From: Alphaproteobacteria bacterium | Lineage (GTDB): Bacteria > Pseudomonadota > Alphaproteobacteria > UBA9219 > RFNS01 | Assembly (NCBI GenBank): GCA_009927055.1 | Contig: RFNS01000256.1 | Span: 1-38,954 of the forward strand | Direction: 5' to 3' | Length of the DNA stretch: 38,954 nt | Program-made: the position numbers and the translations under genes | Shown here: positions 3,761 through 32,677 of the stretch, piece by piece | Numbering within the stretch: the first letter of the stretch is position 1 | How the letters are laid out: the number at the start of each line of letters is the position of its first letter | The notes under the pieces: model-generated | Told to the model about the DNA's origin: nothing | The model's database searches: none | The model's input: only the letters and a program-made list of their open reading frames with translations

Positions 3761-3805
3761 TCTATGTAAGCAGAATCCGGCGGCGTATCAACCCATCCTG
3801 CGGCT

Positions 3806-4255
3806 CTACTTATGATACGGATGCCCCAGCGCAATGCATTGCGCCCTGTAAATCTGCTCGATCAGCATAATACGACACAGCCTGTGCGGCCACGTGGCCT
3901 GCCCAAAGGCGATCAGCGCGCTGGCTTTTTTCTTGATCGCCGCATCAAGCCCATGCGAGCCACCCACCACAAAACACACGTTTTGCTGCTGCCAGGCCGA
4001 TAATTTTTCGGCAAAAATATCGCTGCTCACCTCTTTGCCAGAACGATCAAGCGCCACGATAAAACTTTTCTGAGGAATGTTGTCAGCCAGCCATTTATTT
4101 TCCCAGATGTTCTGCTCTTTCTCGCTTAAACCGTTGGGAGATTCAGCGTCCAGCAATACGGGCGCAGGTTTGATGCGCTTGGCATAATCATCATAAATTG
4201 TTTTCCATTCGCCACGCAGCTTGCCAATGGCCACAAGGGTTGTTTTGCCTGCCAC
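3806..4255 (-). CDS. rlmH: 23S rRNA (pseudouridine-1915-N3)-methyltransferase RlmH
   Basis: A SPOUT-class methyltransferase that N3-methylates pseudouridine 1915 in helix 69 of 23S rRNA on the assembled 70S ribosome. The 149-aa length matches the family. Diagnostic segments are the N-terminal beta strand TLVAIGKLR, FIVALDRSGKEVSS, the cofactor-binding knot VVGGSHGLD, and the C-terminal LIEQIYRAQCIALGHPYHK. It begins 2 bases after the rsfS stop, so rsfS-rlmH are almost certainly co-translated, the usual arrangement for these two ribosome-associated genes. Confidence 0.97.
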   Translation of the reverse strand: MAGKTTLVAIGKLRGEWKTIYDDYAKRIKPAPVLLDAESPNGLSEKEQNIWENKWLADNIPQKSFIVALDRSGKEVSSDIFAEKLSAWQQQNVCFVVGGSHGLDAAIKKKASALIAFGQATWPHRLCRIMLIEQIYRAQCIALGHPYHK

Positions 4256-15209: not shown

Positions 15210-15722
15210 ATGATCAGGGTCGATGACGCCAAATTCAAACAGGTGGTGGGGTGCTTTCCCACCGGCGTGGCCGTGGTGGCGTGGCGCGATATGGAAAGCC
15301 GCCTGACAGGCATCACCATCAGTTCGTTCACATCGCTGTCACTCGATCCGCCGCTTATTCTGTTCTGCCTTAACAAAAATTCGCGCCGGTGGGGCAGCTT
15401 GCGGCAGGCTGAATACTTTAGTGTGACGATCCTCGATCATGATCAAGGCGATATCTGCCGCCATTTCGCCCGCCATGCCCAGCAAACCCAGTGGGATGAG
15501 ATTGATTATGACACAGGCCCCCTGGGCTGCCCCATTCCGAACGATGCCGTGGCGTGGATGGAATGCCGCCGCACGCGCTATTATTTGGGGGGCGATCACT
15601 ATATTATTCTGGGACAGGTCATGACACTGGATGTGGAAAAAAAATCAGATGCCACGCGCCCGCTGCTTTATTATCGCAGCAAAATTTTTCCTGAAAACAA
15701 AAGCGCAAAGAAGAAACTTTAG
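15210..15722 (+). CDS. flavin reductase-like domain protein (FMN-binding split barrel)
   Basis: A 170-aa protein of the HpaC/RutF type that reduces free FMN or FAD with NAD(P)H, usually to supply a partner monooxygenase. Family features are FKQVVGCFPTGVAVVAWRD at the N-terminus, TGITISSFTSLSLDPPLILFCL, the FSVTIL strand, and GDHYIILGQV near the end. No oxygenase partner is adjacent on this strand; the nearest flavoenzyme is the UbiH-like protein about 3.4 kb away. It is divergent from motA and shares its upstream region, including the CtrA box. Confidence 0.88.
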   Translation: MIRVDDAKFKQVVGCFPTGVAVVAWRDMESRLTGITISSFTSLSLDPPLILFCLNKNSRRWGSLRQAEYFSVTILDHDQGDICRHFARHAQQTQWDEIDYDTGPLGCPIPNDAVAWMECRRTRYYLGGDHYIILGQVMTLDVEKKSDATRPLLYYRSKIFPENKSAKKKL

Positions 15723-15887: not shown

Positions 15888-16394
15888 TCACTCACTCTCC
15901 CCCGCCACCGCATTGCCCCATGTTTTACGCAGATGCCCCTGCTGATCGGCAATTTCTTTGATGCGGGATTCGGCGCTGGCCTGCATTAAACTGACCACCA
16001 GCGGCGGAATAAAAAACACCAAAAGCCAGCCCATGCCGGCAGCACCATACATCATCATCCAGCTGGCGGGGTTGCCCAAAATGGTGAAAGCGGCATCAAA
16101 ATCGTGCCCCTTTTTCACCAAATCGACCACCAGCGGCAGCACGCCCGCGCTGTTCAGCGCAAAGACCGTAATGGCGGCGGCTTTTTCTCTATCCCTATCC
16201 ACCACAAAGGCCACCATGGCCGGCAGCAGGCCCGGCAGAACAATGCACGCTGTGGGCAGAAAAATGGCCAGCAAAATACCCCCAAACATAATCAGCACCG
16301 TGAGGGGATTGCTTTGTTTTTTTTGTTTGCCGCCCCCCTTGCCTGCGGCGGCTTTGGGGTCTTTTCCTTTGGCGGGAGCTTTTTTGTCGGCCAT
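15888..16394 (-). CDS. polytopic membrane protein of unknown function, partner of the pseudokinase
   Basis: A 168-aa protein I cannot assign. It begins with a cytoplasmic Lys/Ala/Gly-rich tail (about 28 residues), followed by three or four hydrophobic helices: LTVLIMFGGILLAIFLPTAC continuing to about residue 65, AAAITVFALNSAGVLPLVV, and SWMMMYGAAGMGWLLVFFIP with an adjoining segment. The C-terminus (ESRIKEIADQQGHLRKTWG) is charged and probably cytoplasmic. It begins 2 bases after the stop of the pseudokinase gene, so the two are co-translated and probably act together at the inner membrane. Confidence 0.82.
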   Translation of the reverse strand: MADKKAPAKGKDPKAAAGKGGGKQKKQSNPLTVLIMFGGILLAIFLPTACIVLPGLLPAMVAFVVDRDREKAAAITVFALNSAGVLPLVVDLVKKGHDFDAAFTILGNPASWMMMYGAAGMGWLLVFFIPPLVVSLMQASAESRIKEIADQQGHLRKTWGNAVAGESE

Positions 16395-16396
16395 GT

Positions 16397-18451
16397 CTAT
16401 CCTCCAAACAATCCACGCAAAATTGTCATCATGCCAATGGCGGCGGCGATAATGCTGCCCACATAGGTGGCGGTGGGCCGACCATATTTAATGGCTACCG
16501 CATCAGGATTTTTGATTTGCGCTTCCAGCACCTGCGTTTCTTTTCTGAGGGCCGAAAAATATTTTCGGGCGGCATCAAATTCTCGCGTATCTTTCTCAAT
16601 GAGCCGACTATCGCCCACCATTTTACTCATCAAGGCCAGGTTTCCTTTTTCGGCCACTTCGCGCAGGGCTTTTCGCAACTCCTCGCGCATCACGCGATTA
16701 TGAAAACGCTGAATGGTTGGCTCCATCAGCGGCAGCAGCCAGCTACAAAGGCCCGGCACCTTCTCTGGCCCATGCTTGGCCTGAATATCGCCATAAACCG
16801 ATAACATCGTCATCAGCTGGCCCAGCACATCGTTCTGCGTAAAGGGCAAAAACAGGCGTTCTGGTTTTCTATCACGCGCGCACAGCCATGCGGCAATATG
16901 CCTGTCCATCGGCTCGCGCGGTTTGCCGCTTTGCTTGGCCATACTCTCTAATACGCCCAAAAAATCTTTCACGCTGTTCACATAATGTCCGCCCATCAGC
17001 GGGCTTTGACACGGCATGCCCGGACATAACTCATAAATCACGCGCTCTGGCCCGTAACCATGAATCGATTTCTCGATCATGTTTTTCATCTTCTCCATGC
17101 TTTGAATAAGCGGAACAAGATGGGGCTTATCATCCCCCTGCAACTCGGCCCACACCGGAATGGCCTTGCCTGTTAAAAGTTCGGCAATGGGTTGCACCGA
17201 AATATTGGCGCGCAGCGCCTCGGCCATGGCAAAGCCCACACCGCCCGGCATCACGCGCATGCCCTTCATCACAAACGGCGCCAGCGGATCCAGCGCCATG
17301 CACACATAGGTGGTCATCATATCATCGCGCCGCTGGCCGCCCGCGTTTTCCTGATAAGCTGTTAAACACTCGGTTAAAAAATTGGCGCGCTGATCATCCA
17401 TCAGCGATCGCCTGATCCAGCGATCAAGCTCGCCACTCTCGACCAACTCAACCGTCTTGGCCACATTGTCGGCCAGAGCCTGCGCCAGGGGCCGCGGCTG
17501 GATATAATCCTGCCCGGCAATGTTCAGCTGCCTGTTGGCGCGGCGACCAATTTCAGCAGGCAATGCGGTTTGCCGCTGTCCGCCCAGCCACTGATCAATC
17601 GTGGTTGGCTTCCACCGCATGTGGGGATCATCAATCAACAGCGCGCGCAGCAATTCCAGCATCCCGCTCGACATGCGCTGATTGGCTAGTAGCAGGTTAA
17701 ACGAACCCTTTTCAATTTTCATGCGTGTCAACGTTTTATCATCAATGCCGCGCAGGGGGTTTTGCCCCAAAAGCAGAAACGCCACGCAGATGCCCAGCGC
17801 ATAAGTATCATCCAAAATGGTCGGGTAACCGCGCGCGGCGGGCGAACACAACCCGCGCTCGACCGTTTCATAAACAACAGGCTGACCAACGCCCGATGGC
17901 ACCGCAATACATTCGCCCATTTCGGCGGGCACGGGCATATTATCTTTCCAAAACATATTGGACAGGCGAATTTGACCATGCCCGACGCCGGCCATTTCTA
18001 ACTCAATCAGCGCGGCCGTAATGGGCGTTAAAAAATTCTTCACAATAAAATCTTCCGCCAAAGGCTGCCGCACAAACTGATCATCCTTCACATAGCGTTT
18101 GTGGTGCGGCCGCTCGATGATAAAAACGAAATTATTTTTATCATCAGCCGGATTTTTTAACATACCGCTTTCAACCACGCGCGCAAAGCTGGTGTGGTTC
18201 ACATTTTTAAGTGTCGGCACAATATCCGATCGCGGGGGCAATCCGCTGTTGCAGAAATAAGCCAGCAAATCAATACGGCCATTCCCCTTAAACCGCGCGG
18301 CATAGGCTTTGGCCCCCACGCTGTCGAATTCAGGTTGCGGGTGGGCCAGCAGCACTTCGGTTTTTGGGCCAAGTGCTTTCAGGTCGCCAATATCGGTAAT
18401 CTGCGGCAAATTGCCGTCGTCTGCCTCTGCCATCGCCCGTCTCGATGCCAT
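16397..18451 (-). CDS. membrane-anchored protein-kinase-like protein (predicted pseudokinase)
   Basis: A 684-aa protein with a degenerate protein-kinase fold at about residues 30-290, a long helical region, a predicted coiled coil at about 610-650, and a C-terminal membrane helix (ATYVGSIIAAAIGMMTILRG). HGQIRLSN (158-165) aligns with the kinase catalytic loop HRDxKxxN but has Gln where the catalytic Asp belongs; the Asn is kept. DDTYALGICVAFLLLG (214-229) matches the following kinase helix. I see no DFG motif, so catalysis is unlikely. Possible starts are 18451 and 18433; if the CtrA box marks the -35 region, 18433 fits better. The partner membrane protein follows after 2 bases. Confidence 0.85.
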   Translation of the reverse strand: MASRRAMAEADDGNLPQITDIGDLKALGPKTEVLLAHPQPEFDSVGAKAYAARFKGNGRIDLLAYFCNSGLPPRSDIVPTLKNVNHTSFARVVESGMLKNPADDKNNFVFIIERPHHKRYVKDDQFVRQPLAEDFIVKNFLTPITAALIELEMAGVGHGQIRLSNMFWKDNMPVPAEMGECIAVPSGVGQPVVYETVERGLCSPAARGYPTILDDTYALGICVAFLLLGQNPLRGIDDKTLTRMKIEKGSFNLLLANQRMSSGMLELLRALLIDDPHMRWKPTTIDQWLGGQRQTALPAEIGRRANRQLNIAGQDYIQPRPLAQALADNVAKTVELVESGELDRWIRRSLMDDQRANFLTECLTAYQENAGGQRRDDMMTTYVCMALDPLAPFVMKGMRVMPGGVGFAMAEALRANISVQPIAELLTGKAIPVWAELQGDDKPHLVPLIQSMEKMKNMIEKSIHGYGPERVIYELCPGMPCQSPLMGGHYVNSVKDFLGVLESMAKQSGKPREPMDRHIAAWLCARDRKPERLFLPFTQNDVLGQLMTMLSVYGDIQAKHGPEKVPGLCSWLLPLMEPTIQRFHNRVMREELRKALREVAEKGNLALMSKMVGDSRLIEKDTREFDAARKYFSALRKETQVLEAQIKNPDAVAIKYGRPTATYVGSIIAAAIGMMTILRGLFGG

Positions 18452-18470
18452 GAGAATAAAAAATCAGGGG

Positions 18471-18485
18471 TTAAGGTGTTGTTAA
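18471..18485. promoter_or_regulatory. CtrA box (TTAA-N7-TTAA) upstream of the pseudokinase gene
   Basis: TTAAGGTGTTGTTAA is a perfect match to the CtrA consensus. It lies 20 bases upstream of the longest pseudokinase start, or 38 bases upstream of the alternative ATG at 18433. It is also 11 bases from the -35 box of the divergent higBA promoter, so it could influence either unit. Confidence 0.55.
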
Positions 18486-18495
18486 ACAAAACGGC

Positions 18496-18535
18496 TTGAC
18501 AATAACATCATCACATGATAGTATCACGCTGTGAT
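18496..18535 (+). promoter_or_regulatory. higBA promoter and operator
   Basis: TTGACA (18496-18501), 17 bases, then TAGTAT (18519-18524) is a near-consensus sigma-70 promoter. The -10 region is covered by the inverted repeats TGATA-G-TATCA (18516-18526) and ATCAC-GCT-GTGAT (18523-18535), a suitable site for autorepression by the HigA antitoxin. The expected transcription start falls at or next to the HigB start codon. Confidence 0.7.
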
Positions 18536-18815
18536 CATAAACTTCAAAAAGCGCAACATCGCGTCTGAAATTTTTGAAGGCTTTTGGGTCAAGGGCATGG
18601 ATAAATCGTTGCAGATCAAGGCTTACCGTAATCTGATGGCGCTGCATTATGCCCACAGGCTGGATGATTTGCGCATTCCTGCCGGCAACAGGCTGGAGGG
18701 CCTGAAGGGCGATCGGCGGGGACAATACAGCATACGCATCAATGATCAATGGCGCATCTGTTTTGCGTGGGGCAAAAACGGCGCCGAGGATGTAGAGATT
18801 GTCGATTATCACTGA
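18531..18815 (+). CDS. higB: HigB-type toxin (RelE superfamily mRNA interferase)
   Basis: A 94-aa RelE/HigB-family toxin that in characterised members cleaves mRNA on the ribosome. Family features are the N-terminal IINFKKRNIASEIFEG, RIPAGNRLEGLKGDRRGQYSIRI, WRICFAW and the terminal VEIVDYH. The start is GTG at 18531. No ribosome-binding site precedes it, and the promoter -10 box ends only 6 bases upstream, so the mRNA may be leaderless. The toxin gene precedes the antitoxin, the usual HigBA order, with a 15-base gap. Confidence 0.92.
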   Translation: MIINFKKRNIASEIFEGFWVKGMDKSLQIKAYRNLMALHYAHRLDDLRIPAGNRLEGLKGDRRGQYSIRINDQWRICFAWGKNGAEDVEIVDYH

Positions 18816-18830
18816 TAGAAAGGGGCTACC

Positions 18831-19154
18831 ATGTCACGCAAACGCGATATTCCGCCGCTTCACCCAGGCAAACTGCTGCTGGAAGAATTTATGCACCCCA
18901 TGGGACTGACCCAGTATAGGCTGGCGAAGGGAACAGGGCTGCCGTCCATCCATATCAGCAGCATTGTGCGTGGCAGGCGCTCCATTACGGCTGAAACGGC
19001 GCTGCGTCTTGGACGATTTTTTGGCATGTCGGCTGAATTTTGGATCAATGCGCAGGCCCACTATGACCTGCAGGTGGCTGAAAGCAAAATCGCCGATACG
19101 GTGCGCCGCGAAGTCACGCCATTTGCAGAAATGGCCATCGCCACTCAGGCCTAG
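18831..19154 (+). CDS. higA: HigA-type antitoxin (XRE family)
   Basis: A 107-aa HigA/VapI-family antitoxin. It has PPLHPGKLLLEEFMHPMGLTQYRLAKGTGLP leading into a helix-turn-helix, with ISSIVRGRRSITAETALRLG as the recognition half, then the family signature FFGMSAEFWINAQAHYDL. It should neutralise HigB and repress the shared promoter. AAAGGGG before the ATG is a strong ribosome-binding site, in contrast to the toxin. Different translation strengths from one mRNA would favour excess antitoxin. Confidence 0.94.
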   Translation: MSRKRDIPPLHPGKLLLEEFMHPMGLTQYRLAKGTGLPSIHISSIVRGRRSITAETALRLGRFFGMSAEFWINAQAHYDLQVAESKIADTVRREVTPFAEMAIATQA

Positions 19155-19205
19155 CCCTCTGCCTCATCGCTTGGCATTCGCCCACAAATCAGCTTATTTG
19201 CAGCC

Positions 19206-21467
19206 ATGGCCAAGGCTTTGAAGAAAAACAGCGCTCCCCCTTCCCCGCCGCCCGAGATTGGCGAGCAAACGCTGCGCAGCGCGTTATCTGAGCGTTATCT
19301 GGCCTATGCCATTTCTACCATTACCAGCCGCGCCTTGCCCGATGTGCGCGATGGCTTAAAACCTGTTCAGCGCCGCCTGCTTTACGCCATGCGCGAACTG
19401 AATTTGAAGCCAGATCTGGCGCCCAAAAAATCGGCCCGCGTGGTGGGCGATGTGATTGGCCAATATCACCCGCACGGCGATACCGCGGTGTATGATGCCA
19501 TGGTGCGCCTGGCGCAAGATTTTGCGCAGCGTTACCCGCTGGTTGATGGTCAGGGCAATTTTGGCAACATCGATGGCGATAATGCGGCCGCCATGCGTTA
19601 TACCGAAGCGCGTTTGACCGAGATTGCGGCCCTGCTTCTGAAGGGGTTGAACAACAACACGGTCGATTTTCGCGCAACCTATGATGGCAGCGGGCAAGAA
19701 CCCGTTGTGCTTCCCGCCGCCTTCCCCAACCTGCTGGCCAATGGGGCCAGCGGCATTGCGGTGGGCATGGCCACCAGCATCCCCCCCCACAATGTGGTCG
19801 AGTTGTGCGATGCCCTGCGCCACCTCATCAAACACCCCAACGCCCGCACCGATAAACTGGTCTCATTCATTCAGGGGCCCGATTTCCCCACAGGCGGCAT
19901 ACTGGTTGAAGCGCCAGAGAATATTTTATCGGCCTATGAAACAGGTCGTGGCAGTTTTCGTGTTCGCGCGCGCTGGCAGGTTGATGAAGGTGCCCGCGGC
20001 ATGTGGCAGGTGGTGGTGACTGACATTCCTTATCAGGTCACCAAAAGCCGTTTGATTGAAAAAATCGCGGCCTTGATTGAAGAAAAAAAACTGCCCCTGC
20101 TGGATGATGTGCGCGATGAAAGCGCCGATGATGTGCGCCTTGTTCTGGTGCCTAAGAGCCGGAATGTAGAGGCCAGCGTGTTGATGGAAAGTCTTTTCCG
20201 CAACACCGAACTTGAAAACAGAATAAGCCTGAACATGAACGTGCTGGATGCACAGGGTGTGCCGCAGGTGATGAATTTGCGTGCGTGTTTGCAGGCTTTT
20301 CTTGATCATCGGCATGTTGTGCTGGTGCGCGCCAGCCAACACAGACTGGCCCAGATTGATGCGCGGCTGGAAATTTTGGAAGCGCTGCTGATTGCCTATT
20401 TGAACGTTGATGAGGTGATCAAAATTATTCGGCGCGAGGATGAACCCAAACCCGTGATGATGAAACGTTTTTCATTATCCGAAACGCAGGCCGAAGCGAT
20501 TTTGAACATGCGCCTGCGCCAGCTTCGCAAGCTGGAGGAAATGGAGATTAAAGGCGAAGAAAAAGAATTAAAGGCCGAACGCAAAACGTTGAAAGATTTA
20601 TTGGGCGATGAATCTCTACGCTGGGAGAAAATTGACCAAGAACTGGTGGAATTGAAAAAAATGTTCGGCCCCGCCTCTACGCTGGGCAAACGCCGCACAG
20701 ATATTGGCACGCCGCCGGCCGATATCACCATCCCCATTGAAAGCGTGATCGAACGCGAACCCATCACCATCATCTGCTCGGCCAAGGGGTGGATCCGCGT
20801 GCACAAAGGCCACGTGAGTGATGATACAGCCCGTAGTGCCATTAAATATAAAGAAGGCGACAGCGAAGGCTTTGTGCTGCCGGCTGAGACGACCGATAAA
20901 ATCTTGCTGTGGGGCAGCAACGGCCGCTGCTATACACTGATGCCCGATAAACTGCCAGGCGGCCGCGGCTTTGGCGAGCCTGTGCGCCTACTCATCGATC
21001 TGCCGCCCGCCAGCGATATTATCGCCCTGCATATTTATCGTGATGATTTGAAAATGATTGTGGCCAGCAAAGAAGGCCACGGCTTTGTGGTGAACGCGCC
21101 CGACGCGCTGGCGCAAACAAAACAAGGCAAACAAATTTTGAATGTTGAAAACCCGCAAGATGGTTTGTGCGTCGTGCCTGTTGCCGGCAACCATGTGGCC
21201 ACCATTGGCACAAACCGCAAAATGCTTGTCTTCCCGCTGGCCGAATTGCCCGAAATGTCGCGCGGCAAAGGCGTGCTGCTGCAACGTTATCAAGATGGGC
21301 ATTTATCAGACATCACCACCCTTACGTTAAAGCAGGGCTTGAGCTGGATATCGGGCAGCCGCACCAAAACAGAGGCCGACATGCGACCCTGGCTTGGCAA
21401 ACGCGCCCAGGCCGGCCGCCTGGCCCCGCATGGGTTTAACAGGAATAATAAGTTTGTATCTTGCTGA
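19206..21467 (+). CDS. parC: DNA topoisomerase IV subunit A
   Basis: The cleaving subunit of topoisomerase IV, which unlinks replicated chromosomes. The 753-aa protein has the breakage-reunion domain with [37 protein letters not shown] and the catalytic Tyr132 in AAMRYTEAR, followed by a beta-propeller C-terminal domain. The QRRGGKG-type GyrA box is absent, favouring ParC over GyrA. At the quinolone-contact positions it has Thr93 and Asp97, where E. coli ParC has Ser80 and Glu84. The start has no strong ribosome-binding site. It lies 51 bases downstream of higA and upstream of dnaN on the same strand. Confidence 0.95.
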
Positions 21468-21532
21468 ACTGACTTGCCTTGATCGCACGAGTCATGCACT
21501 AAATCACTGATATCCTTAACCAAGGTATGTTG

Positions 21533-22657
21533 ATGAAGATCACGCTTGAGCGTCCGGCGCTACTTAAAACTCTGGGCCACGTGCAAAATGTGGTAGAGAA
21601 ACGCAACACCATTCCCATTCTGGCCAATGTCCTTATTCGCACGGGCGGCCAGTCGGTCAGTTTTGCCGCCACCGATATGGATTTGGAGATTACCGAAAGC
21701 CTGCCCAACGAAGGCAGCCAGCGCACGCATGGTGCTGTCACCGCCCCTGCCCACACGCTGTTTGAAATTGTGCGCAAATTGCCCGAAGGCAGCCATGTTG
21801 AATTGCACGCCGCGCAGCCTAATCAACTCACGCTGTCGGCGGGCCGCGCCCACTTTAAGCTGGGGTGCCTGCCGGTTGAGGATTTCCCGCAGATTTCAGA
21901 AGGGCATTACGCGCACAAATTTTCGCTCTCCGCCTCTGATCTCAAGGTACTGATCGACCGCACAAAATTTGCCATTTCTAACGAAGAAACACGTTATTAT
22001 CTGAATGGCATCTATCTGCACTCGACCAAATCAAAAGGCGGGCCAGAGGTTTTGCGCGCGGTGGCCACCGATGGTCACAGGCTGGCACGTGTTGAAATGC
22101 CGGCACCCACAGGTGTCAAAAATCTTGAAGGGGTTATTCTGCCGCGCAAAGTGGTGACCGAGTTGCGCAAACTGCTGGATGAAACCAACAGCGATATTGA
22201 AGTGGCCCTGTCTGAGAACAAAGTGCGCTTCAGCTTTGGCGATATTGTGCTGACCAGCAAGCTGATTGATGGCACCTTCCCTGATTATGAGCGCGTGATC
22301 CCCGCCGGTAACGATAAAATGATGCAGGTGGATGCGCGGTTGATGGCCGCCGCGGTCGATCGCGTGGCCACCATTACATCAGAAAAAACGCGGGCGATTA
22401 AACTCAGCCTTGGTCAAGGCCACCTGACCCTGTTTGCCAACAGCCCCGAAGCCGGCAGCGCCAGCGAAGAACTGGAAGTGAAGTACGATGGCCCCGTGCT
22501 GGAAATTGGCTTTAACGCCCGTTATTTGCTGGATATTCTGCAACAGGTTGAAAGCGAAGGTGCCAAATTTAATTTTGCCGACGGCGCAAGCCCCGTGATT
22601 GTGCAAGATGTGGCCGACCACAGCAGCCTGTTTGTCATTATGCCGATGAGGGTGTAG
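21533..22657 (+). CDS. dnaN: DNA polymerase III beta sliding clamp
   Basis: The ring-shaped processivity clamp of the replicative polymerase, 374 aa in three repeated domains. Recognisable segments are VEKRNTIPILANVLI near the N-terminus, EETRYYLNGIYLH and VATDGHRLARVEMP in the middle domain, and the C-terminal SPVIVQDVADHSSLFVIMPMRV, whose MPMR motif is part of the partner-binding pocket. An ATG at 21527 is also in frame, but AAGG is at the correct spacing only for 21533. dnaA is not adjacent, so this is not the classic origin cluster. Confidence 0.96.
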   Translation: MKITLERPALLKTLGHVQNVVEKRNTIPILANVLIRTGGQSVSFAATDMDLEITESLPNEGSQRTHGAVTAPAHTLFEIVRKLPEGSHVELHAAQPNQLTLSAGRAHFKLGCLPVEDFPQISEGHYAHKFSLSASDLKVLIDRTKFAISNEETRYYLNGIYLHSTKSKGGPEVLRAVATDGHRLARVEMPAPTGVKNLEGVILPRKVVTELRKLLDETNSDIEVALSENKVRFSFGDIVLTSKLIDGTFPDYERVIPAGNDKMMQVDARLMAAAVDRVATITSEKTRAIKLSLGQGHLTLFANSPEAGSASEELEVKYDGPVLEIGFNARYLLDILQQVESEGAKFNFADGASPVIVQDVADHSSLFVIMPMRV

Positions 22658-22666
22658 GGCCAGCCC

Positions 22667-23065
22667 TCAGATCCCCATCAGGGCGTACAAATAAAGGCAC
22701 GCAAACGATGCGATAAGCAGCACAAGATAAGTCAGCTGTGCGCCAATGGCCCGCATTGGGTTGGACAATGAAAAATCGTGCATGGCCACAGCATGCATGA
22801 TGCGCCCCACCAAAAGCGTGCTGCCCAGAATGTGCAAAATCTCCTGTGGCGCGCCCCGCATCTCAATCATCACCAGCAACGCCAGCGTCAGGGGCACAAA
22901 TTCAATAAAACTGCTTAAAATATTTTCGGCGCGCTTCAAATATTCGGGCTCCTTATCGCGGGTGACGACAACCCGCACCCAGTGATACGTCACATTCATG
23001 CCCAGCAGAGCCAGCAAAACACCGGCCAGCCCAGCATACAATGGGGTGATGTGCAGCAGAGTCAT
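22667..23065 (-). CDS. MAPEG-family membrane protein
   Basis: A 132-aa four-helix membrane protein. The family pattern is clear: an N-terminal helix (PLYAGLAGVLLALLGMNVTYHWVR), then RAENILSSFIEFVPLTLALLVMIE, containing the conserved Arg/Asn and Glu-Phe-Val-Pro elements, then LLVGRIMHAVAM and a last hydrophobic helix. MAPEG proteins include glutathione-dependent transferases, but many bacterial members have no known substrate. It lies 37 bases after the thioredoxin gene on the same strand and converges on dnaN with a 9-base gap. Confidence 0.87.
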   Translation of the reverse strand: MTLLHITPLYAGLAGVLLALLGMNVTYHWVRVVVTRDKEPEYLKRAENILSSFIEFVPLTLALLVMIEMRGAPQEILHILGSTLLVGRIMHAVAMHDFSLSNPMRAIGAQLTYLVLLIASFACLYLYALMGI

Positions 23066-23102
23066 GCCTGAAGGCTAGCTGAATCTGTGGCAAAGGCAAA
23101 GG

Positions 23103-24047
23103 TTATGAGAAAAGAATGGTCGATAGTTTTTTGCGCCCGTCCACTGTCAGCGGATCAGACGGGCCAAAAGCTTCAAAACACTTTAACAGCTGGCGGCGCG
23201 CGGCCTCATCATTCCACTTGCGGTCGCGCCGAACAATCTCCAGCAAATGGTCGATGGCCTGGCCATTTTTCTTTTCAGATAGCAGCGCGCACGCCAAGTT
23301 ATAGCGCGCCTGATGATCGGCCCCGTTGGCCTCCACCCGCGCCTGCAAATCGGCCACGCTGCCGGCCTTCATCGCCTCGGCCGCCAACTCCAGCGCGGCC
23401 TTCACGGCGGTCATGGCGCCGTGCAAACGTATGGCTTCAGGCGCATGATCATAAAGCTGCTGGGCTTTCGCCACATCGCCCAGCGACAGATAACATTTGG
23501 CCAATCCGGCATAGGCGCCGGGGTGATCGCGCTGCTGCATCAGCACCTGCGCATAAATATTCTGCGCCATGGCAAAATCTTCTGCGGCCAGGGCTTGATC
23601 AGCCTCGCTCACAATATCATCGACAGAGGGTGCATCCTGTGACGCCCCTCTCATGCCGTTGGCTGCCGCAAGCTTCAACAGCTGATCACACCACAGCTTA
23701 AGCTGCGCTTCGGGTTGGACGCCTGTAAAACCATCCACCGGCTGGCCGCCCAAAAATGCAAACACCGTGGGCACCGATTGCACCCCCAGCTGCTGCGCCA
23801 CCATGGCGTTGTCATCGATATTCACTTTCACCAAACGCATGGCGCCTTTGTGGCTGTTGATGAGTTTTTCCAGCACGGGCATCAGCTGCTTGCAGGGGCC
23901 ACACCACGGGGCCCAAAACTCTACCACCACCGGCATCTGAAGCGATGCCTTCAGCACGTCATCGGCAAATTTGGGGGTGCTGGTCTCCACAATCCAGCCC
24001 TGGGGGGCCGTTGCGGCTTGCTGTTTTTGGGCGCTGCCAATAATCAT
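23103..24047 (-). CDS. cnoX: thioredoxin domain plus tetratricopeptide repeats (CnoX/YbbN type)
   Basis: A 314-aa protein with an N-terminal thioredoxin fold (about residues 20-125) and a C-terminal TPR-like helical region (about 145-310). The redox motif WAPWCGPCK (WCGPC at 48-52) is intact, whereas the E. coli protein CnoX has lost the first Cys. CnoX acts as a holdase that protects proteins from oxidative stress and transfers them to chaperonins; the intact CGPC suggests this one may also exchange disulfides. AAGGAG upstream of the ATG is a strong ribosome-binding site. There is no signal peptide, so it is cytoplasmic. Confidence 0.9.
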   Translation of the reverse strand: MIIGSAQKQQAATAPQGWIVETSTPKFADDVLKASLQMPVVVEFWAPWCGPCKQLMPVLEKLINSHKGAMRLVKVNIDDNAMVAQQLGVQSVPTVFAFLGGQPVDGFTGVQPEAQLKLWCDQLLKLAAANGMRGASQDAPSVDDIVSEADQALAAEDFAMAQNIYAQVLMQQRDHPGAYAGLAKCYLSLGDVAKAQQLYDHAPEAIRLHGAMTAVKAALELAAEAMKAGSVADLQARVEANGADHQARYNLACALLSEKKNGQAIDHLLEIVRRDRKWNDEAARRQLLKCFEAFGPSDPLTVDGRKKLSTILFS

Positions 24048-24151
24048 TGTGTGCCTTTCTCCTTACATATAAGGTTTGCGGGCCGCAGAGACAAGAAAAA
24101 GCTTCCCCCTTGACGAAAGTTTGGCTTCAGGGCATTGATGGGGCACGTCGA

Positions 24152-24226
24152 GCGGGCGTAGCTCAGGGGTAGAGCATAACCTTGCCAAGGTTAGGGCCGA
24201 GGGTTCGATTCCCTTCGCCCGCTCCA
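24152..24226 (+). tRNA. tRNA-Gly (anticodon GCC)
   Basis: A full cloverleaf is visible: acceptor stem GCGGGCG (24152-24158) with CGCCCGC (24216-24222), D-arm GCTC/GAGC, anticodon stem TAACC/GGTTA with loop TTGCCAA and anticodon GCC at 24184-24186, and T-arm GAGGG/CCCTT with loop TTCGATT. The discriminator is T and the CCA end is encoded. It stands alone between cnoX and the glutamate dehydrogenase gene. Confidence 0.97.
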
Positions 24227-24320
24227 TTCTCAAAAACCTTATGCAAGCGCGAAACGCCCCCATTTTCAGGGAAGTTTTTTGTGTTATTGTATGAACGACG
24301 ATTCAGCCCCGTTTCACTGA

Positions 24321-24332
24321 TGACTTAAGTCA
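24321..24332. promoter_or_regulatory. perfect 12-bp palindrome upstream of glutamate dehydrogenase
   Basis: TGACTTAAGTCA is a perfect palindrome 21 bases before the ATG of the glutamate dehydrogenase gene, in a 127-base intergenic region. Its position suits an operator. The regulator is unknown, and a chance palindrome cannot be excluded. Confidence 0.3.
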
Positions 24333-24353
24333 CCCCAACAACCTGTTGATCTC

Positions 24354-27300
24354 ATGCCAAAAACTGCAAAAAAACGCGCTTCCCCCTCCTCTATGTTTCA
24401 CACCTTCTACAACAAGCTTTTTGCGCTCATGCTTCCAGAAGATCAACAAATCATTGGTCTGAGCGAGCGGCATGAGATTGCATCCCATTTATGGAAAAAT
24501 CTTCAGCAACGCAAACGCGGTGATGTGAAGGTGAACGTGTATTGCCCATCACTGAAAACACACGGATGGCAAAGCGCACACAGCATTCTGGAAGTTATTA
24601 ATGATGATATGCCGTTTCTGGTCGATAGTTTAACGGGCTTACTCAACCGCAGCGGTTTTTCTGTTCAACAAGTTTTTCACCCCATCGTGCATGTCAAACG
24701 CACGCGCGCGGGTAAAATTCAAACATTCTCAGCCGAACCTGAGCAAGACACTCAACCTGAGTCTGTCATCCATTTTCAGTTTGATTATTGCGATGATGCG
24801 GCGCGCCTTAAAAAACTTTCAGAAGATGCCCTAGGCATTCTGGACGATGTGCGCTGCGCTGTCAGTGATTGGAGTTTGATGAAACAAAAAACGGCCGAAA
24901 CCGTGGCCGAGCTGGCCGCCATGCCGCAGGCTCTTTTCCCCCAAGAAGATGTGGCCGAGACCCAGGCCTTTATGAACTGGCTGGCCGATAATAATTTTAC
25001 ATTTCTTGGCTATCGCGAAATTTATTTCCCCAACAATGCGCGCGATAGTTTTGAAATCGTCTCCAAATCAGGGCTTGGCATTTTGCGCGACCCGCAGCGC
25101 ATTCTGTTTAATCAGATGCGTAAACTCTCGGCCCAGCCGCCCGAAGTTCAGCGCTTCTTCAATCGCAAACGCCTTATTCTGGTGTTGAAAACCAACATGA
25201 TCTCCAGCGTCCATCGCAGCGTGCCGATGGATGCCATTTTTGTGAAACGATATGACAAACAAGGGCGCGAAATCTCAGAACGCATTTATGTGGGCCTGTT
25301 TACCAGCAGCGGCTATATGCGTATTCCGCGCGAGGTGCCCATTTTGCGCCTTAAAATCCGCAATGTCATGGCACGATCGGGGTTTGATCCTGTCAGTCAT
25401 GACGGCAAAACGTTGACTCACATTCTCGATAATTATCCGCGCGATGAATTGTTTCAAATCAACCATGAAGACTTGTATCGCAACAGCATGGGCATTTTGC
25501 ATTTGCAGGAACGGCAACATCTGGCCCTTTTTATGCGGCAAGATTCTTTTGGCCGTTTTGTCACATGCCTTATTTATGTCCCGCGTGATAATTACGATAC
25601 AAGTCTGCGTGAAAAATTTAGGCACATCATTGAATCTGAGCTGAATGGCACACAAACAACTTTTACCACGCGCATTGATGATCAGCGGCTGGCACGCGTT
25701 TTTGCAGTTATTCACCTTAAAAACGGCATGCCAAAAGGCTTTAGCCAAGAAAGACTTGAAAAAAAACTGCGTGAAGCTGCCCGCGCCTGGCCCGATCGGT
25801 TACGCGAATGTTTGATTGAAAAACAGGGCATTACAATCGGCAGCGCGCTACATCAAAAATATGCACATTCGTTCCCTTCTGCTTACACAGCCCACTTCAG
25901 GCCAGAACATGCTGTGAATGACATTTTGCAAATTTCTAAAATGCCACGGGGACAAAATCTGATTGCCGATTTGATCGCCGATGATGACAACAAACAAGCC
26001 GTGCATTTGCGCGTTTACCACAGGGGCAAGCCACTTGAACTATCATCGGTCATGCCGATTATTGAAAATATGGGGCTGATGGCTGAAAGCGAAACGGGCC
26101 CTTTTGCTGTGATAGACAAAGATGAAAAAATATTTGTTCACAGCTTTAAGGCAAAATTGCAAGGTGACTCCACCATAGACCTTACCGCAATCCACGATGA
26201 GTTTTTGAAAACTTTTGTATCAGTGTGGCAAGGGCATCAGGATAACGATACCTTCAATCAACTCATTCTGCTGGCGGGCATGACAGGGCGACAGGTTGTG
26301 CTGGTGCGCGCACTCTCGCGCTATCTCAAGCAAATTCGCGCCCCGCACAGCCTTATCAGCATCACGCACACACTGGTCAAACATGCCCAGCTTTCACAAT
26401 TGCTGCTTAAATTGTTTGAGCTGCGACACTCACCAGCCATCACATCTCAAGCCCGCAAGCAGTTTAGTAAAATACGGGCAGAATTTATGGCTGGGCTGGC
26501 CAAGGTTCCCACGCTTGATGAAGATCGCATTCTGCGCCGACTGTTGAACTTGATCGAAGCGGCGATGCGCACCAATTTTTATCAAGACAATGCGCCCGCA
26601 CTCGCCATCAAGTTTGATTGCGCAGCAGTAGAAAACATGCCCCTGCCCCGCATGAAGTATGAAATTTTTGTCCATTCCAGCCTGGTGGAAGGCATTCACC
26701 TGCGCGGCGGCAAAGTGGCGCGTGGCGGCATTCGCTGGTCAGACCGCGAGGATTTCCGCACCGAAATTCTTGGCCTTGTGAAAGCGCAGATGGTGAAAAA
26801 TGCCGTGATTGTGCCTGTGGGGTCAAAGGGTGGTTTTGTGGTGCGCCAAAAACTGTCGGCCGATCATTATCAAGATGGCATCACCTGTTATCAAATCTAT
26901 ATCCGGTCACTTCTTTCGCTTACCGATAATCTGGTGAAAGGAAAAATTATTCCACCCAAGCAGGTGCTGCGTCACGATGGCGATGACCCCTATCTGGTTG
27001 TCGCGGCCGATAAAGGCACAGCCAAATTTTCAGACATCGCCAACACCATCAGCCAAGAACACGGCTTCTGGCTGGATGATGCTTTTGCCTCCGGTGGCTC
27101 GGTGGGGTACGACCACAAAGAAATGGGCATCACAGCCCGCGGCGCGTGGGAGTCGGTCAAGCGTCACTTCCGCGAAATGGGCCACGACACGCAATCGCAA
27201 AATTTTACGGTCATGGGCGTGGGCGATATGTCGGGCGATGTGTTTGGCAACGGCATGCTGCTATCAAAACATATTCGTTTGCTGGGTGCGTTCGATCACA

Positions 27301-29084
27301 GGCACATTTTTTGTGATCCGAACCCCGATGCCGCCAAAAGTTTTAAGGAGCGCGAGCGCATGTTCCACCTGCCTAAAAGCAGCTGGGCCAATTATCATGC
27401 TAAACTCATCAGCAAGGGTGGCGGCATTTTCAGCCGGCAGGAAAAATCTATTCGCATCACCCCAGAAATGAAGGCCGCTTATGATATTGGGGCCGAAACA
27501 CTTTCACCCCAAGATCTGATCAACGCCATGTTAAAAGCGCCGGTCGATCTGTTGTATCTGGGCGGCATTGGCACTTATGTTAAAGCAAGCACCGAAACTC
27601 ATGAGCAGGTCGATGACCGCGCGAATGACAGCCTGCGCGTGAACGCCAAAGAACTGCGCGCCAAAGTGGTGGCCGAGGGCGCAAACCTTGGCTGCACACA
27701 GCGCGCGCGCATTGAATTTGCCAAACTGGGCGGCCGCATCAATACCGATGCCATCGATAATTCGGCGGGTGTTGATACCTCTGATCACGAAGTGAATATC
27801 AAAATTGCTTTTGCCCCCTCGTTGATCAGCGCTAAATTAAAGCGCCCTGCGCGCAATAAACTGCTGCGCGACATGACCGATGATGTGGCCAAACTTGTGC
27901 TGCGCGATAATTATTTGCAAACGCAGGCGCTGACGGTGGCGCAACTGCGCGGCAATGAACTGGTTCACCTGCATGCGCGCACCATCGCCGCGCTTGAAAA
28001 AACGGGCCTGCTCAACCGTCAGGTAGAATTTTTGCCAGACGAGGAAGAACTTTCGGCCCGCATGCGCGATGGACAAACCCTCACGCGGCCTGAGTTGGCG
28101 GTGCTGCTGGCCTATGCCAAAATCTGGCTGTTCGATCAGCTTCTCGCCTCTAATCTTCCTGATGATCCGTGGCTGAAAGGCGATTTGCTGCGCTATTTTC
28201 CTAAGAAAATGTCTGATAAATTTTCGCGCGATATTGCTCAGCACCAACTGGCGCGCGAGATTATTGCCACTTCCATCACCAACAGTTTCATCAATCGCGC
28301 CGGAAGCCAGTTTGTGTTTCGCGCGATGGAGAAAACAGGGCAAAACGCCGTTGCGGTCACACGCGCCTATGTCATCGCGCGTGATAGTTATCAGCTGGTC
28401 AGCTATTGGCGGGCGATTGAATCTTTGGATAATGTGGCGCCCGCTGCCGTTCAGGCCGAGTTGTTTTTATACACTGAACGGTTGCTGAGTTACGTTGTGC
28501 CGTGGATTCTGCGCGAAACAAAAGTGACCCAGCCGTTTGAAAAACAAATCGATGATCTGGGCAGTGCCTGCCAAAAAATGCGCACCTGGCTGGATGAGAA
28601 CACGCCCGTATCGGCCAAGGTGAATGCCAGCCAACTGATCGCGCAAAAGGTGCCAGAGCCGCTGGCGAAAACCGCTGCGCTCATCCCCTTGCTTAGCGCG
28701 GCGCCCGATGTGCACTGGCTTTCACAAAAATATAACGTCAGCATCGCCCAAGGTTCGGCCCTGTTCTTCAGTGTGGGCGATAGGTTTAATTTCAGCTGGC
28801 TGCGCGAGAAATGCCGCGCATCGGCCCAGAACACCCAATGGCAGCGCGACGCCATTTCGGGCCTGATTGAAGATTTATTTATCACCCAGCGCATGCTGTG
28901 CGGCAAAATTTTATCCAGCCATCGCAAACAATGGCATGATCCTGCGGCATGGTTTGCGGGCAGCACGCGCCTTCAGGCCATTGATCACACGATGAACGAG
29001 CTGCGCCACTCAACCGCGATTGATTTTGCGGGCCTCGCCCTTATGGCGCGGCAACTGGGGCTGCTGGCCAAACAAGGCGATTAG
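24354..29084 (+). CDS. NAD-specific glutamate dehydrogenase, 180-kDa class (GDH2)
   Basis: A 1576-aa enzyme oxidising glutamate to 2-oxoglutarate and ammonia with NAD, a catabolic role. The large N-terminal part carries ACT-like regulatory regions (FLVDSLTGLLNRSGFSVQQV near residue 90). The catalytic domain begins around residue 780 (LRGGKVARGGIRWSDREDFR), continues with KNAVIVPVGSKGGFVV and SGGSVGYDHKEMGIT, and reaches the nucleotide-binding domain with FTVMGVGDMSGDVFGNGML. The C-terminal helical region is also complete. Length is normal for the class. No ribosome-binding site is evident. Its stop codon overlaps that of the convergent lysK. Confidence 0.96.
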   Translation: MPKTAKKRASPSSMFHTFYNKLFALMLPEDQQIIGLSERHEIASHLWKNLQQRKRGDVKVNVYCPSLKTHGWQSAHSILEVINDDMPFLVDSLTGLLNRSGFSVQQVFHPIVHVKRTRAGKIQTFSAEPEQDTQPESVIHFQFDYCDDAARLKKLSEDALGILDDVRCAVSDWSLMKQKTAETVAELAAMPQALFPQEDVAETQAFMNWLADNNFTFLGYREIYFPNNARDSFEIVSKSGLGILRDPQRILFNQMRKLSAQPPEVQRFFNRKRLILVLKTNMISSVHRSVPMDAIFVKRYDKQGREISERIYVGLFTSSGYMRIPREVPILRLKIRNVMARSGFDPVSHDGKTLTHILDNYPRDELFQINHEDLYRNSMGILHLQERQHLALFMRQDSFGRFVTCLIYVPRDNYDTSLREKFRHIIESELNGTQTTFTTRIDDQRLARVFAVIHLKNGMPKGFSQERLEKKLREAARAWPDRLRECLIEKQGITIGSALHQKYAHSFPSAYTAHFRPEHAVNDILQISKMPRGQNLIADLIADDDNKQAVHLRVYHRGKPLELSSVMPIIENMGLMAESETGPFAVIDKDEKIFVHSFKAKLQGDSTIDLTAIHDEFLKTFVSVWQGHQDNDTFNQLILLAGMTGRQVVLVRALSRYLKQIRAPHSLISITHTLVKHAQLSQLLLKLFELRHSPAITSQARKQFSKIRAEFMAGLAKVPTLDEDRILRRLLNLIEAAMRTNFYQDNAPALAIKFDCAAVENMPLPRMKYEIFVHSSLVEGIHLRGGKVARGGIRWSDREDFRTEILGLVKAQMVKNAVIVPVGSKGGFVVRQKLSADHYQDGITCYQIYIRSLLSLTDNLVKGKIIPPKQVLRHDGDDPYLVVAADKGTAKFSDIANTISQEHGFWLDDAFASGGSVGYDHKEMGITARGAWESVKRHFREMGHDTQSQNFTVMGVGDMSGDVFGNGMLLSKHIRLLGAFDHRHIFCDPNPDAAKSFKERERMFHLPKSSWANYHAKLISKGGGIFSRQEKSIRITPEMKAAYDIGAETLSPQDLINAMLKAPVDLLYLGGIGTYVKASTETHEQVDDRANDSLRVNAKELRAKVVAEGANLGCTQRARIEFAKLGGRINTDAIDNSAGVDTSDHEVNIKIAFAPSLISAKLKRPARNKLLRDMTDDVAKLVLRDNYLQTQALTVAQLRGNELVHLHARTIAALEKTGLLNRQVEFLPDEEELSARMRDGQTLTRPELAVLLAYAKIWLFDQLLASNLPDDPWLKGDLLRYFPKKMSDKFSRDIAQHQLAREIIATSITNSFINRAGSQFVFRAMEKTGQNAVAVTRAYVIARDSYQLVSYWRAIESLDNVAPAAVQAELFLYTERLLSYVVPWILRETKVTQPFEKQIDDLGSACQKMRTWLDENTPVSAKVNASQLIAQKVPEPLAKTAALIPLLSAAPDVHWLSQKYNVSIAQGSALFFSVGDRFNFSWLREKCRASAQNTQWQRDAISGLIEDLFITQRMLCGKILSSHRKQWHDPAAWFAGSTRLQAIDHTMNELRHSTAIDFAGLALMARQLGLLAKQGD

Positions 29085-30643
29085 GCCAGTTTTTCAGCCA
29101 TGAGTTTTAAGGTGTTGTCAACGCCATACAGCGCAATAAAACCGCCCATGCGCGGGCCGGTAGCTTGGCCCAACAGCACCTCATACATCGCCTGAAACCA
29201 CTGCCGCAACTCGGCAAAGCCATGACGTTTTCCCACATCATAAACAATGGTTTGAATATCTTCGGCGCTCGCATTGTGGGGCATGTTTTTTAATGACGCC
29301 TGCAAATCTTCCAGCGCTTTACGCTCAACATCAGTCGGTGCGCGATAATTTTTGGTTGGCTTGATATGATCTTGATAATATCTGATGGCATACCCCACCA
29401 GCTGATCAAGATAAGGCGTGGCGGCGGGCGATGCGTTGGGCGCATATTTGCTGATAAAACCCCACATGACATTTTTATCTTCCGTGTTGGCCACACCCGC
29501 CAAATTAAGAAGCATGGTGAAGCTGAGCGGCGAAAGATTGTTGGGAATTTTCCCACCATGAATGTGATACGCCGCGTTTTCATATAACTGCTCTGGCGCT
29601 TCATTCAATGTTTTTTCAGCGAAGGTTAAATATTCATCCACCGCGCGCGGGAGCACATCAAAATAAAGTTTTTTGGCCGTGCGCGGTTTCTGAAACATAT
29701 ACAACGCCAAACTTTCGGGTGGGGCATAGGCCAGCCATTCTTCAATGGACAGCCCATTTCCTTTCGATTTGCTGATTTTCTGCCCGTGCTGATCCAGAAA
29801 CATTTCATAGCGCAAGCGCTCAGGGGTCTGGCCGCCTAAAATCTCACAAATTTTTCCACCCGCTTCGAACGAGCTGTCCAAATCCTTGCCCGACATTTCA
29901 TAATCAACGCCCAGCGCTGTCCATCGCATGGCCCAATCGGGCTTCCACTGCAGTTTGCAATAACCGCCTGTTACCGGCACTTCGGTTTTTGTGTCGTCTT
30001 CATCTTCAAAAATAATTGTGCCCGTTTTCAAATTTCTCTCCAACACCGGCACCTGCAGCACGCGCCCCGTTTTGGGTGAAATGGGCAAGAAAGGCGAATA
30101 GGTTTGCTGTCTTTCTTCGCCCAGCGTGGCCAACATCACCTCCATCATCTCATCATACTTTTCCAAAACTTTCAGCAGGGTCGCATCAAACTCGCCCCCT
30201 TGATAGGCCGCGGTTGATGATTTGAATTCATACTCAAAACCAAACTGATCTAAAAAACTCCGCAGTCGCGCGTTGTTGTGCGCGCCAAAACTATCATGCG
30301 TGCCAAAGGGGTCGGGCACTTGCGTCAACGGCTTGCCCAAACAATCGCGCAACATGTCTTTGTTCGGAACATTCTCAGGCACCTTGCGCAGGCCATCCAT
30401 ATCGTCTGAAAAACAAATCAGCCGCGTCGGAATATCAGACATAAGAGTAAAAGCATGACGCACCATGGTGGTGCGCACCACTTCGCCAAAGGTGCCAATG
30501 TGCGGCAGGCCTGAGGGGCCATAACCCGTTTCAAACAGCACATAGCCCTTGGCGGGTGGCTTGTGCGCATAGCGCGCCACCAGTTTGCGGGCTTCTTCAA
30601 ACGGCCAGGCTTTTGCCTGCATGGCAATGGTTTTGTCGGTCAT
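29081..30643 (-). CDS. lysK: lysyl-tRNA synthetase, class I
   Basis: Charges tRNA-Lys. It is the archaeal-type class I enzyme, found in most alphaproteobacteria in place of the class II form. The class I signatures are PSGLPHIGT (43-51, the HIGH motif) and KISKSKG (289-295, the KMSKS motif). The 520-aa length and the C-terminal helical anticodon-binding region are normal. It lies 42 bases after the methyltransferase gene on the same strand. Its stop is inside the end of the convergent glutamate dehydrogenase gene. Confidence 0.96.
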   Translation of the reverse strand: MTDKTIAMQAKAWPFEEARKLVARYAHKPPAKGYVLFETGYGPSGLPHIGTFGEVVRTTMVRHAFTLMSDIPTRLICFSDDMDGLRKVPENVPNKDMLRDCLGKPLTQVPDPFGTHDSFGAHNNARLRSFLDQFGFEYEFKSSTAAYQGGEFDATLLKVLEKYDEMMEVMLATLGEERQQTYSPFLPISPKTGRVLQVPVLERNLKTGTIIFEDEDDTKTEVPVTGGYCKLQWKPDWAMRWTALGVDYEMSGKDLDSSFEAGGKICEILGGQTPERLRYEMFLDQHGQKISKSKGNGLSIEEWLAYAPPESLALYMFQKPRTAKKLYFDVLPRAVDEYLTFAEKTLNEAPEQLYENAAYHIHGGKIPNNLSPLSFTMLLNLAGVANTEDKNVMWGFISKYAPNASPAATPYLDQLVGYAIRYYQDHIKPTKNYRAPTDVERKALEDLQASLKNMPHNASAEDIQTIVYDVGKRHGFAELRQWFQAMYEVLLGQATGPRMGGFIALYGVDNTLKLMAEKLA

Positions 30644-30685
30644 ACTGCATTATTGGCGCAACAGCCCCGTCACCGCAAGGCGTGG

Positions 30686-31387
30686 CTACGGCCTCTCGTT
30701 CACGCGGTGCCTGAAAAGCAGGGCATAGGTTTGGCGATTGTACATTTTTCCGTGTTGAACATCGGGCCCATCCTTGATGCGCTCGGCCACCAAATCAAAC
30801 GCGTTGTGGAAATATTGCACCACACGATCACGCGTATAAAGCACGCTTTCAATGCCGTTGGCGGGGTCAACAATCACCCCCTCTGGGGCCGAGGCATCGG
30901 GCAAATACTGCCCATAATATCCATCGCCAATGCTGGCAAATGAAATCAGGTACCACCCGCGCACCGCGAGCGCGCGAATAAGATTATCGCGGTATGAATC
31001 GCGCGCATCATTCCCCACAATGTGTTTGAAGCAAAAAGTATCGATGGCAAAATCGATGCTGTGTTCGGCCACGGGCCAGCCTTCGGTCACATCATATACC
31101 AGCGCACGAATGCGCGGCGATAATCCTTCAACCTCGGCCGCGTGTTGAAGCGCGGCAATGGCATTCGGCGTAAAATCCATCGCGGTCACGTGCATGCCCT
31201 GGCGCGCCAAAAAAAGGCTGTTGCGGCCTTTGCCGCACCCAATATCTACCGCCTGTTTCATGGCGGCCTGCTGCGTGCCAATTTTCTCCCACGCCCACAC
31301 AACGGCGCCCGAAGGCGTATGGCGATGAGAGGATGGCAACCCACCCTGCCCATACTCGGCTGCCCAGCGTTGCGGATTTGATTTCAT
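30686..31387 (-). CDS. class I SAM-dependent methyltransferase, substrate unknown
   Basis: A 233-aa protein with a single Rossmann methyltransferase domain. Motif I is AVDIGCGKGRNSLFLARQG, the acidic residue after strand 2 is in VTAMDFTPNAI, and IRALVYDVTEGWP supplies motif II. The order resembles TehB/UbiE-like small-molecule methyltransferases, but nothing in the sequence names the substrate. It is divergent from heme A synthase with only 18 bases between start codons, so each promoter must extend into the other gene. It is probably co-transcribed with lysK downstream. Confidence 0.88.
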   Translation of the reverse strand: MKSNPQRWAAEYGQGGLPSSHRHTPSGAVVWAWEKIGTQQAAMKQAVDIGCGKGRNSLFLARQGMHVTAMDFTPNAIAALQHAAEVEGLSPRIRALVYDVTEGWPVAEHSIDFAIDTFCFKHIVGNDARDSYRDNLIRALAVRGWYLISFASIGDGYYGQYLPDASAPEGVIVDPANGIESVLYTRDRVVQYFHNAFDLVAERIKDGPDVQHGKMYNRQTYALLFRHRVNERP

Positions 31388-31405
31388 GGTGGCATTTTAG
31401 GCCCA

Positions 31406-32443: not shown

Positions 32444-32445
32444 GC

Positions 32446-32541
32446 ACTGTTGTGCCTGCGAAGGCAGGCACCCATCACCCGAATGAAATGCTCAAAACAA
32501 CCGTATGCGTGATGGGCCTTTGCCTTCGCAGGGGCTTCAGT
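32446..32541. repeat. 96-bp imperfect palindromic interspersed element, copy 2
   Basis: This is the reverse-oriented copy of the element at 15771-15870. The ends are ACTG and CAGT. The left arm contains a 7-bp stem, TGCCTGC with GCAGGCA around a GAAG loop, and the right arm has TGCCTTCGCAGG. The central loop (GAATGAAATGC and CCGTATGCG) is also conserved with copy 1. It lies directly after ctaA. Confidence 0.7.
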
Positions 32542-32651
32542 CTTTTTGATGAGTTCTGTCCATAAGAAAGAGAGGGCACAATGCCCCTTGTATCGCGGCT
32601 GCGAATTCTACGGGCAATCCAGCTTTTCTCTATCGTCACATTCTGTCTACA

Positions 32652-32677
32652 GATTTCGGCATGTGCCGGAATGACAA
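32652..32677. repeat. isolated half of a second palindromic repeat family
   Basis: On the reverse strand the sequence reads TGTCATTCCGGCACATGCCG, nearly identical to the left arm of the element at 34830-34934. Only one arm is found here, so it appears to be a degraded or solo copy. It lies between ctaA and the 3' end of purA and could form a small stem (CGGCA/TGCCG). Confidence 0.5.

Follow-up and report, generated by a model that had tools for sequence, protein, structure and literature searches.

A tail-anchored pseudokinase and its co-inherited membrane partner in Alphaproteobacteria: a candidate scaffold of the inner membrane

Functions are known for only a few bacterial pseudokinases. 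EssB/YukC provides a precedent for a membrane pseudokinase acting as a scaffold (PMC12599244), being a single-pass membrane protein with a cytoplasmic dead kinase domain that works with membrane partners. In the DLHK pseudokinases, the catalytic-loop Arg has been proposed to aid ATP binding in the absence of the beta-3 Lys (PMC12599244), ActPs3 and DYD are placed outside Proteobacteria, and CP1 has no transmembrane (TM) segment (PMC12599244). The family described here is not named in the text of this 2025 review of bacterial pseudokinase families (PMC12599244). The first-pass annotation of the locus called it undescribed, and our search of the literature found no description of the family either; it may still figure as an unlabelled entry in a family atlas of bacterial kinases that the review cites. 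The gene pair studied here thus seems to be unstudied.

The pair, which we call psk and mem, lies in the window (the whole stretch of 38,954 nucleotides that was analyzed), with mem downstream of psk after a gap of 2 nt (Table 1). The positions of both open reading frames (ORFs), their lengths and the gap are exactly as first annotated. Our preferred reading, to which we give a probability of about 0.6, is that the two products are subunits of a single inner-membrane complex, in which psk would act as a non-catalytic, ligand-dependent scaffold for cytoplasmic proteins.

Table 1. Features of the psk-mem locus and its surroundings in the window
Feature	Position	Strand	Basis or remark
Flavin-reductase-like gene, between motA and mem	15210-15722	+	strand opposite to mem
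mem, 168-aa polytopic protein	15888..16394	-	ORF; profile; adjacency to psk
psk, 684-aa tail-anchored pseudokinase	16397..18451	-	ORF; Pkinase match; AlphaFold2 (AF2) model
psk C-terminal transmembrane helix, residues ~660-682 (tail anchor)	16406..16474	-	hydrophobicity and AF2 helix
psk long helix, residues 615-647 (possible coiled coil)	16511..16609	-	AF2 secondary structure
psk helical module, residues ~300-612	16616..17554	-	AF2; profile match to L161-L163 extends beyond kinase domain
psk pseudokinase domain, residues 24-293	17573..18382	-	AF2 model and VIA-align
DDTYALG, residues 214-220, start of helix F	17792..17812	-	homologue table
E180, position of the DFG Asp	17912..17914	-	homologue table; alignment to active relatives
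Degenerate catalytic loop HGQIRLSN, residues 158-165	17957..17980	-	107-homologue table; aligned to HRDIKPGN of active relatives
Segment between psk and purA, ~14 kb	18452-32692		higBA, topoisomerase subunit A gene, dnaN, 1576-aa glutamate-dehydrogenase-like ORF, lysS-like ORF, others
TTAA-N7-TTAA, CtrA-like box, psk/higB intergenic region	18471-18485	+	unconserved, probably outside the system
higBA type II module, HigB-like toxin and HTH antitoxin	18531-19154	+	divergent from psk

As modeled, psk is a bilobal member of the protein kinase superfamily by its fold. The AlphaFold2 model, built with 28 homologues in the alignment, reached a pLDDT of 87.6 and a pTM of 0.82, and residues 21-291 superposed on WNK3 in VIA-align (Z 23.6, 252 residues, rmsd 2.8). 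ULK1 was a further structural match, as were TYK2 JH2 and KSR1, two pseudokinases that came close behind WNK3. The Pfam Pkinase match of psk itself (E 6.7e-5) falls below the curated threshold; the same family was matched independently by 28 of the 28 psk members of the order, and PDB kinase chains were matched at E 1e-7 by the psk family profile. Hence, the structure prediction and the kinase-family profile search, both proposed as checks in the first-pass annotation, returned a kinase. At E 0.01 the ABC1 profile (PF03109) matched none of these 28 members, and an identity as a UbiB/ABC1 atypical kinase was rejected. Behind the kinase domain, the helical module is partly common to active kinases of other Pseudomonadota, as judged by the profile match to L161-L163. 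The coiled coil that had been predicted ahead of the membrane segment appears in the model as a long helix, for which coiled-coil character is possible, and the C-terminal TM helix is borne out both by the model and by the hydrophobicity averaged across 108 homologues, which peaks at 667-675.

The catalytic residues have been lost family-wide, as seen in an alignment of about 107 homologues (107-108). The Asp of the HRD motif corresponds to position 160, where the window protein has Gln and the homologues have mainly other residues (A57, S18, G13, N7, Q3), Asp being found in 2/107, so the initial identification of HGQIRLSN, DDTYALG and a Gln in place of the catalytic Asp was correct. Residues 158-160 read mostly HRA, HGS, HNA or HGG. 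No homologue (0/107) has a Lys at positions 62-67, where the beta-3 Lys would be expected, a loss that the first-pass annotation had not noted, and the careful alignment turned up no intact catalytic triad. What has been kept is equally consistent: His158 (104/107), Arg162 (97/107), Asn165 (105/107), an acid at position 180 (105/107; E57/D48) and an invariant D215. Three active relatives from outside Alphaproteobacteria (L161-L163), in which ILK, HRDIKPGN and DFG are intact, match psk over some 300 residues, from the kinase C-lobe into the first part of the helical module, and differ from it in their C-terminal parts. Since all three motifs are intact in these relatives, whose helical module matches, psk is a decayed kinase. 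Aligned to them, Arg162 of psk occupies the position of the catalytic-loop Lys and E180 sits on the DFG Asp. The absence of DFG noted earlier therefore holds for the string and not for the metal-binding acid, which remains as E180, so that the motif has been lost only in part and, by sequence, the metal-binding pair of Asn and acid is retained.

Active Ser/Thr kinases have the beta-3 Lys, the HRD Asp and the DFG Asp together, a combination that the psk family does not show; it shows instead a kinase fold in which the loss of catalytic residues is conserved among homologues, as is typical of pseudokinases and as the first reading had it. Given that the ATP-anchoring lysine and the catalytic Asp are absent, psk would have no phosphorylation activity. 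Two homologues, from Skermanella aerolata and one other genome (L049 and L116), have the sequence HGDIRPTN with Asp at position 160, and in them too the beta-3 lysine is absent; because of this HGD, residual chemistry in some homologues is conceivable. It is unlikely, in our opinion, that psk retains a non-canonical catalytic activity toward a membrane-bound target, for example AMPylation as in SelO or the chemistry of a ligase: the strong conservation of Arg162, Asn165 and the acid at 180, the likeness of HGxIRxxN to HGVMNTDN of SelO (PMC12599244, Table 1) and the Asp that directly precedes Asn165 in 22/107 homologues would agree with it, but the beta-3 lysine that is retained in SelO and SidJ (PMC12599244) is missing from every psk homologue, Thr directly precedes the Asn in 61/107, and the activation segment is shorter than in the active relatives.

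By analogy, EssB/YukC offers the nearest mode of action for psk, which shares with it the single membrane pass and the cytoplasmic dead kinase domain. However, EssB lacks all three motifs, whereas psk retains the Asn and the acid; psk also has a large helical module, and it belongs to Alphaproteobacteria while EssB belongs to Firmicutes. EssB/YukC is a component of type VII secretion loci (T7SSb), and no T7SS genes were found among the recurrent neighbors of psk as read (purA, hisZ, serA, rpoH, rluD). DLHK pseudokinases resemble psk in the catalytic-loop Arg (HRDLRPxS in DLHK, HxxIRPTN in psk) and in the absence of the beta-3 Lys, but they keep the HRD Asp, have no TM segment and are linked to helicases, and psk contrasts with them in each of these respects (Asp in 2/107; TM helix at 660-682). 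GLW pseudokinases are, like psk, proteobacterial, with a C-terminal TM segment and a lost beta-3 Lys, but in them the GLW motif replaces HRD (PMC12599244), whereas psk keeps the His in 104/107 homologues and has no GLW. Membership of psk in EssB, GLW or DLHK is unsupported. The pseudokinase domain of MviN (ActPs3 family) is another bacterial case linked to a membrane protein, although it is actinobacterial, lies inside MviN itself and has lost the His and Asn of the catalytic loop (PMC12599244, Table 1). The psk profile also reached a protein (L160, 2830-6462) in which a kinase-like C-lobe and a helical module are fused to a DUF4011/AAA helicase, encoded near a radical-SAM activating-enzyme-like gene; it resembles DLHK and anti-phage helicase proteins. 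We rejected an anti-phage defense role for the pair, since the matches were weak and came via the kinase C-lobe alone (mad6, E 2e-4; PD-T4-6, E 0.02) and mem had no match. A search for viral relatives found none.

The second protein is polytopic, as first annotated and as supported by its hydrophobicity and its model. It has a Lys-rich N-terminus, a long hydrophobic segment (30-65) that is kinked or forms a hairpin, two more hydrophobic helices and a polar tail; by the positive-inside rule, both ends would be cytoplasmic. Conserved residues include N81 and G122, and in the C-terminal tail Trp159 is invariant and Gly160 nearly so. The model was of only moderate quality (pLDDT 77, pTM 0.51). We found no Pfam family for mem, and a fold search of it against the PDB gave no match below E 1. 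In Azospirillum records, the products of psk and mem are labeled "serine/threonine protein kinase" and "hypothetical protein," respectively.

The pair is real and old. Of 108 distinct psk loci, 105 could be read on the downstream side, and in 89 of them mem follows directly, mostly with a gap of less than 60 nt. A profile search of the 33 genomes in the order of the window genome found psk in 31 genomes and mem in 30: neither gene is present in G004 and G029, and the remaining genome without mem is 69% complete and has a psk truncated by the end of the contig. Every good genome of the order (21/21) has psk, and most of these genomes measure ~1.5 to 2.5 Mb. Most of the loci without an adjacent mem belong to genus g10 or to Magnetospirillum-type genomes, and there the two genes are unlinked (10 and five genomes, respectively) with exactly one mem in each genome, situated away from psk in all eight of these genomes that were tested and in the other g10 genomes; in one of the Magnetospirillum-type genomes (L169), mem remains next to rpoH after the unlinking. 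Where psk is duplicated in tandem (L146, L147), the arrangement is psk-mem-psk-mem, and a third copy in the genome of L147 (L148) has its own mem and is located behind purA. We regard these paired duplications and at least two separate unlinkings as strong evidence for a joint function of the two products, beyond mere proximity in an operon. The membrane partner proposed at the outset is a genuine one and is co-inherited with psk.

About a third of the alphaproteobacterial genomes sampled carry psk (~131/385, i.e., a raw count of 135 minus four weak matches resembling other kinases), and across the phylum, sampled with 398 genomes, full-length members were confined to Alphaproteobacteria. A contig search for relatives yielded 170 with an alignment as the query and none with a single sequence. 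Carriers include Magnetospirillum, Azospirillum, Skermanella, Thalassobaculum, Terasakiella, SAR116 and Micavibrio. Since Magnetospirillum, Azospirillum, Skermanella and Thalassobaculum are cultivable, the role of psk is directly testable. In most genomes psk is single copy, it is kept in small ones, and it is tied to one dedicated membrane protein, mem, which gives an immediate handle on its function.

The commonest neighbor of psk is purA, which in 70 loci directly precedes it in the same orientation, and rpoH lies convergently downstream of the pair in 46; hisZ, serA and rluD are outer neighbors. The names tilS, ftsH, rluD and serA in unannotated genomes are homology readings of the sequence, while hisZ, purA and rpoH were confirmed by the annotation of Azospirillum thermophilum. 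No conserved client gene was found near the psk-mem loci. The nearest relative of the window genome (G003) has the order serA-purA-psk-mem-rpoH-rluD. In the window, purA (33985-32693, same strand as psk) is 14 kb upstream, and since it is adjacent to psk in G003 and most relatives, the psk locus of the window must have been rearranged locally. The position of purA could be taken to mean that psk, co-expressed with it, senses purine nucleotides (adenylate or guanylate levels), for which a nucleotide-like site partly retained in psk would be suitable. We consider this quite improbable, as the purA/rpoH surroundings may be merely conserved chromosome and psk has been kept after parting from purA in g10, the window genome and Azospirillum ramasamyi.

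In genus g10 (L141, L142, L144, L164-L166), mem is directly behind a putative ftsH, and psk is on another contig behind a putative tilS, the usual neighbor of ftsH. These positions, with the heat-shock sigma factor gene rpoH beside so many of the loci, would suit a pair that aids the insertion, assembly or turnover of membrane proteins, mem being the membrane adaptor of a chaperone or protease. Such a role is unlikely: the argument is one of position, and the commonest neighbor, purA, has no role of this kind. FtsH and RpoH are also present in many alphaproteobacteria without psk-mem.

The first-pass annotation had also linked the pair to motility or cell-cycle control, from the CtrA box and the proximity of motA. 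The box is indeed present in the window, 20 bp upstream of psk in the intergenic region common to the divergent higBA, but it was found in only 1/29 readable loci of the order and 3/108 overall. The window has two TTAA-N7-TTAA sites against 0.34 expected (6/100 shuffles do as well), and the strict TTAAC-N6-TTAAC occurs four times in the genome versus six for the reversed control. The members of a regulon would have a conserved upstream box; since the box is not conserved here, CtrA control of psk-mem was rejected as unsupported. As for motA, it is on the rpoH side of the pair in the window, next to motB, and adjoins psk in no other locus; the pair has been conserved in relatives, as the annotation proposed to check, and its proximity to mot genes has not. 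The ancestral context was purA-psk-mem-rpoH, G003 included, and the adjacency in the window genome is a local accident.

FliG was detected in 119/131 genomes with psk versus 105/254 without it (Fisher P 8e-23, phylogeny ignored), an association that is confounded because psk lies in one broad, mostly flagellate clade. Among the 12 psk genomes without FliG, four have FlhA and eight have neither, these eight being 95 to 100% complete and belonging to five families (f62, f63, f84, f107, f116). Five of them were inspected (three of f84, one each of f116 and f63), and mem was beside psk in all. The pair is independent of flagella. Hence, a CtrA-controlled motility or cell-cycle device acting on the flagellar stator is very unlikely, in spite of the motA/motB adjacency, the box and the co-occurrence with FliG, since eight genomes without FliG and FlhA keep psk and 105 flagellate genomes lack it; and motility as a general function was rejected on the cross-tabulation of FliG and FlhA together with the neighborhoods. 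One of the duplicated pairs also speaks for motility by its position: in L147 (3500-10892), the two tandem psk-mem pairs are beside an ORF that reads as flhA.

Returning to the inner-membrane complex favored above, the kinase-fold domain and the helical module of psk would be cytoplasmic, with the last 25 residues across the membrane and mem as the dedicated membrane partner. That the genes are co-retained even when unlinked predicts a physical complex between their products. The conserved set of Arg162, Asn165 and the acid at 180 suggests that psk probably binds a nucleotide or another anionic ligand as a switch, or else that the cleft docks a protein; the Glu found at the DFG position would be a weak metal ligand, which counts against this reading. 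Depending on the ligand bound by psk, the complex would tether at least one cytoplasmic protein to the membrane. The physical complex, its topology, the ligand binding and the scaffolding are what we infer from these data, and the client process would probably be housekeeping or a general function of the envelope, and not motility. More tentatively, the pair may represent an unnamed alphaproteobacterial signaling or scaffold complex of the membrane, made of a nucleotide-switched pseudokinase and an obligate polytopic partner, that would be part of the core in lineages such as the Micavibrio-like order and the relatives of Magnetospirillum and Azospirillum and would serve a process of which no other component has been described so far.

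One of the active relatives (L161) has a comparable arrangement. Its kinase (1488-4211, minus strand) looks active, with ILK, HRD and DFG, has a helical module that matches that of psk and is hydrophobic over a stretch at the C-terminus; a 455-aa hydrophobic ORF (120-1487, minus strand) comes immediately after it. The two may be a cousin of psk-mem that is still capable of catalysis.
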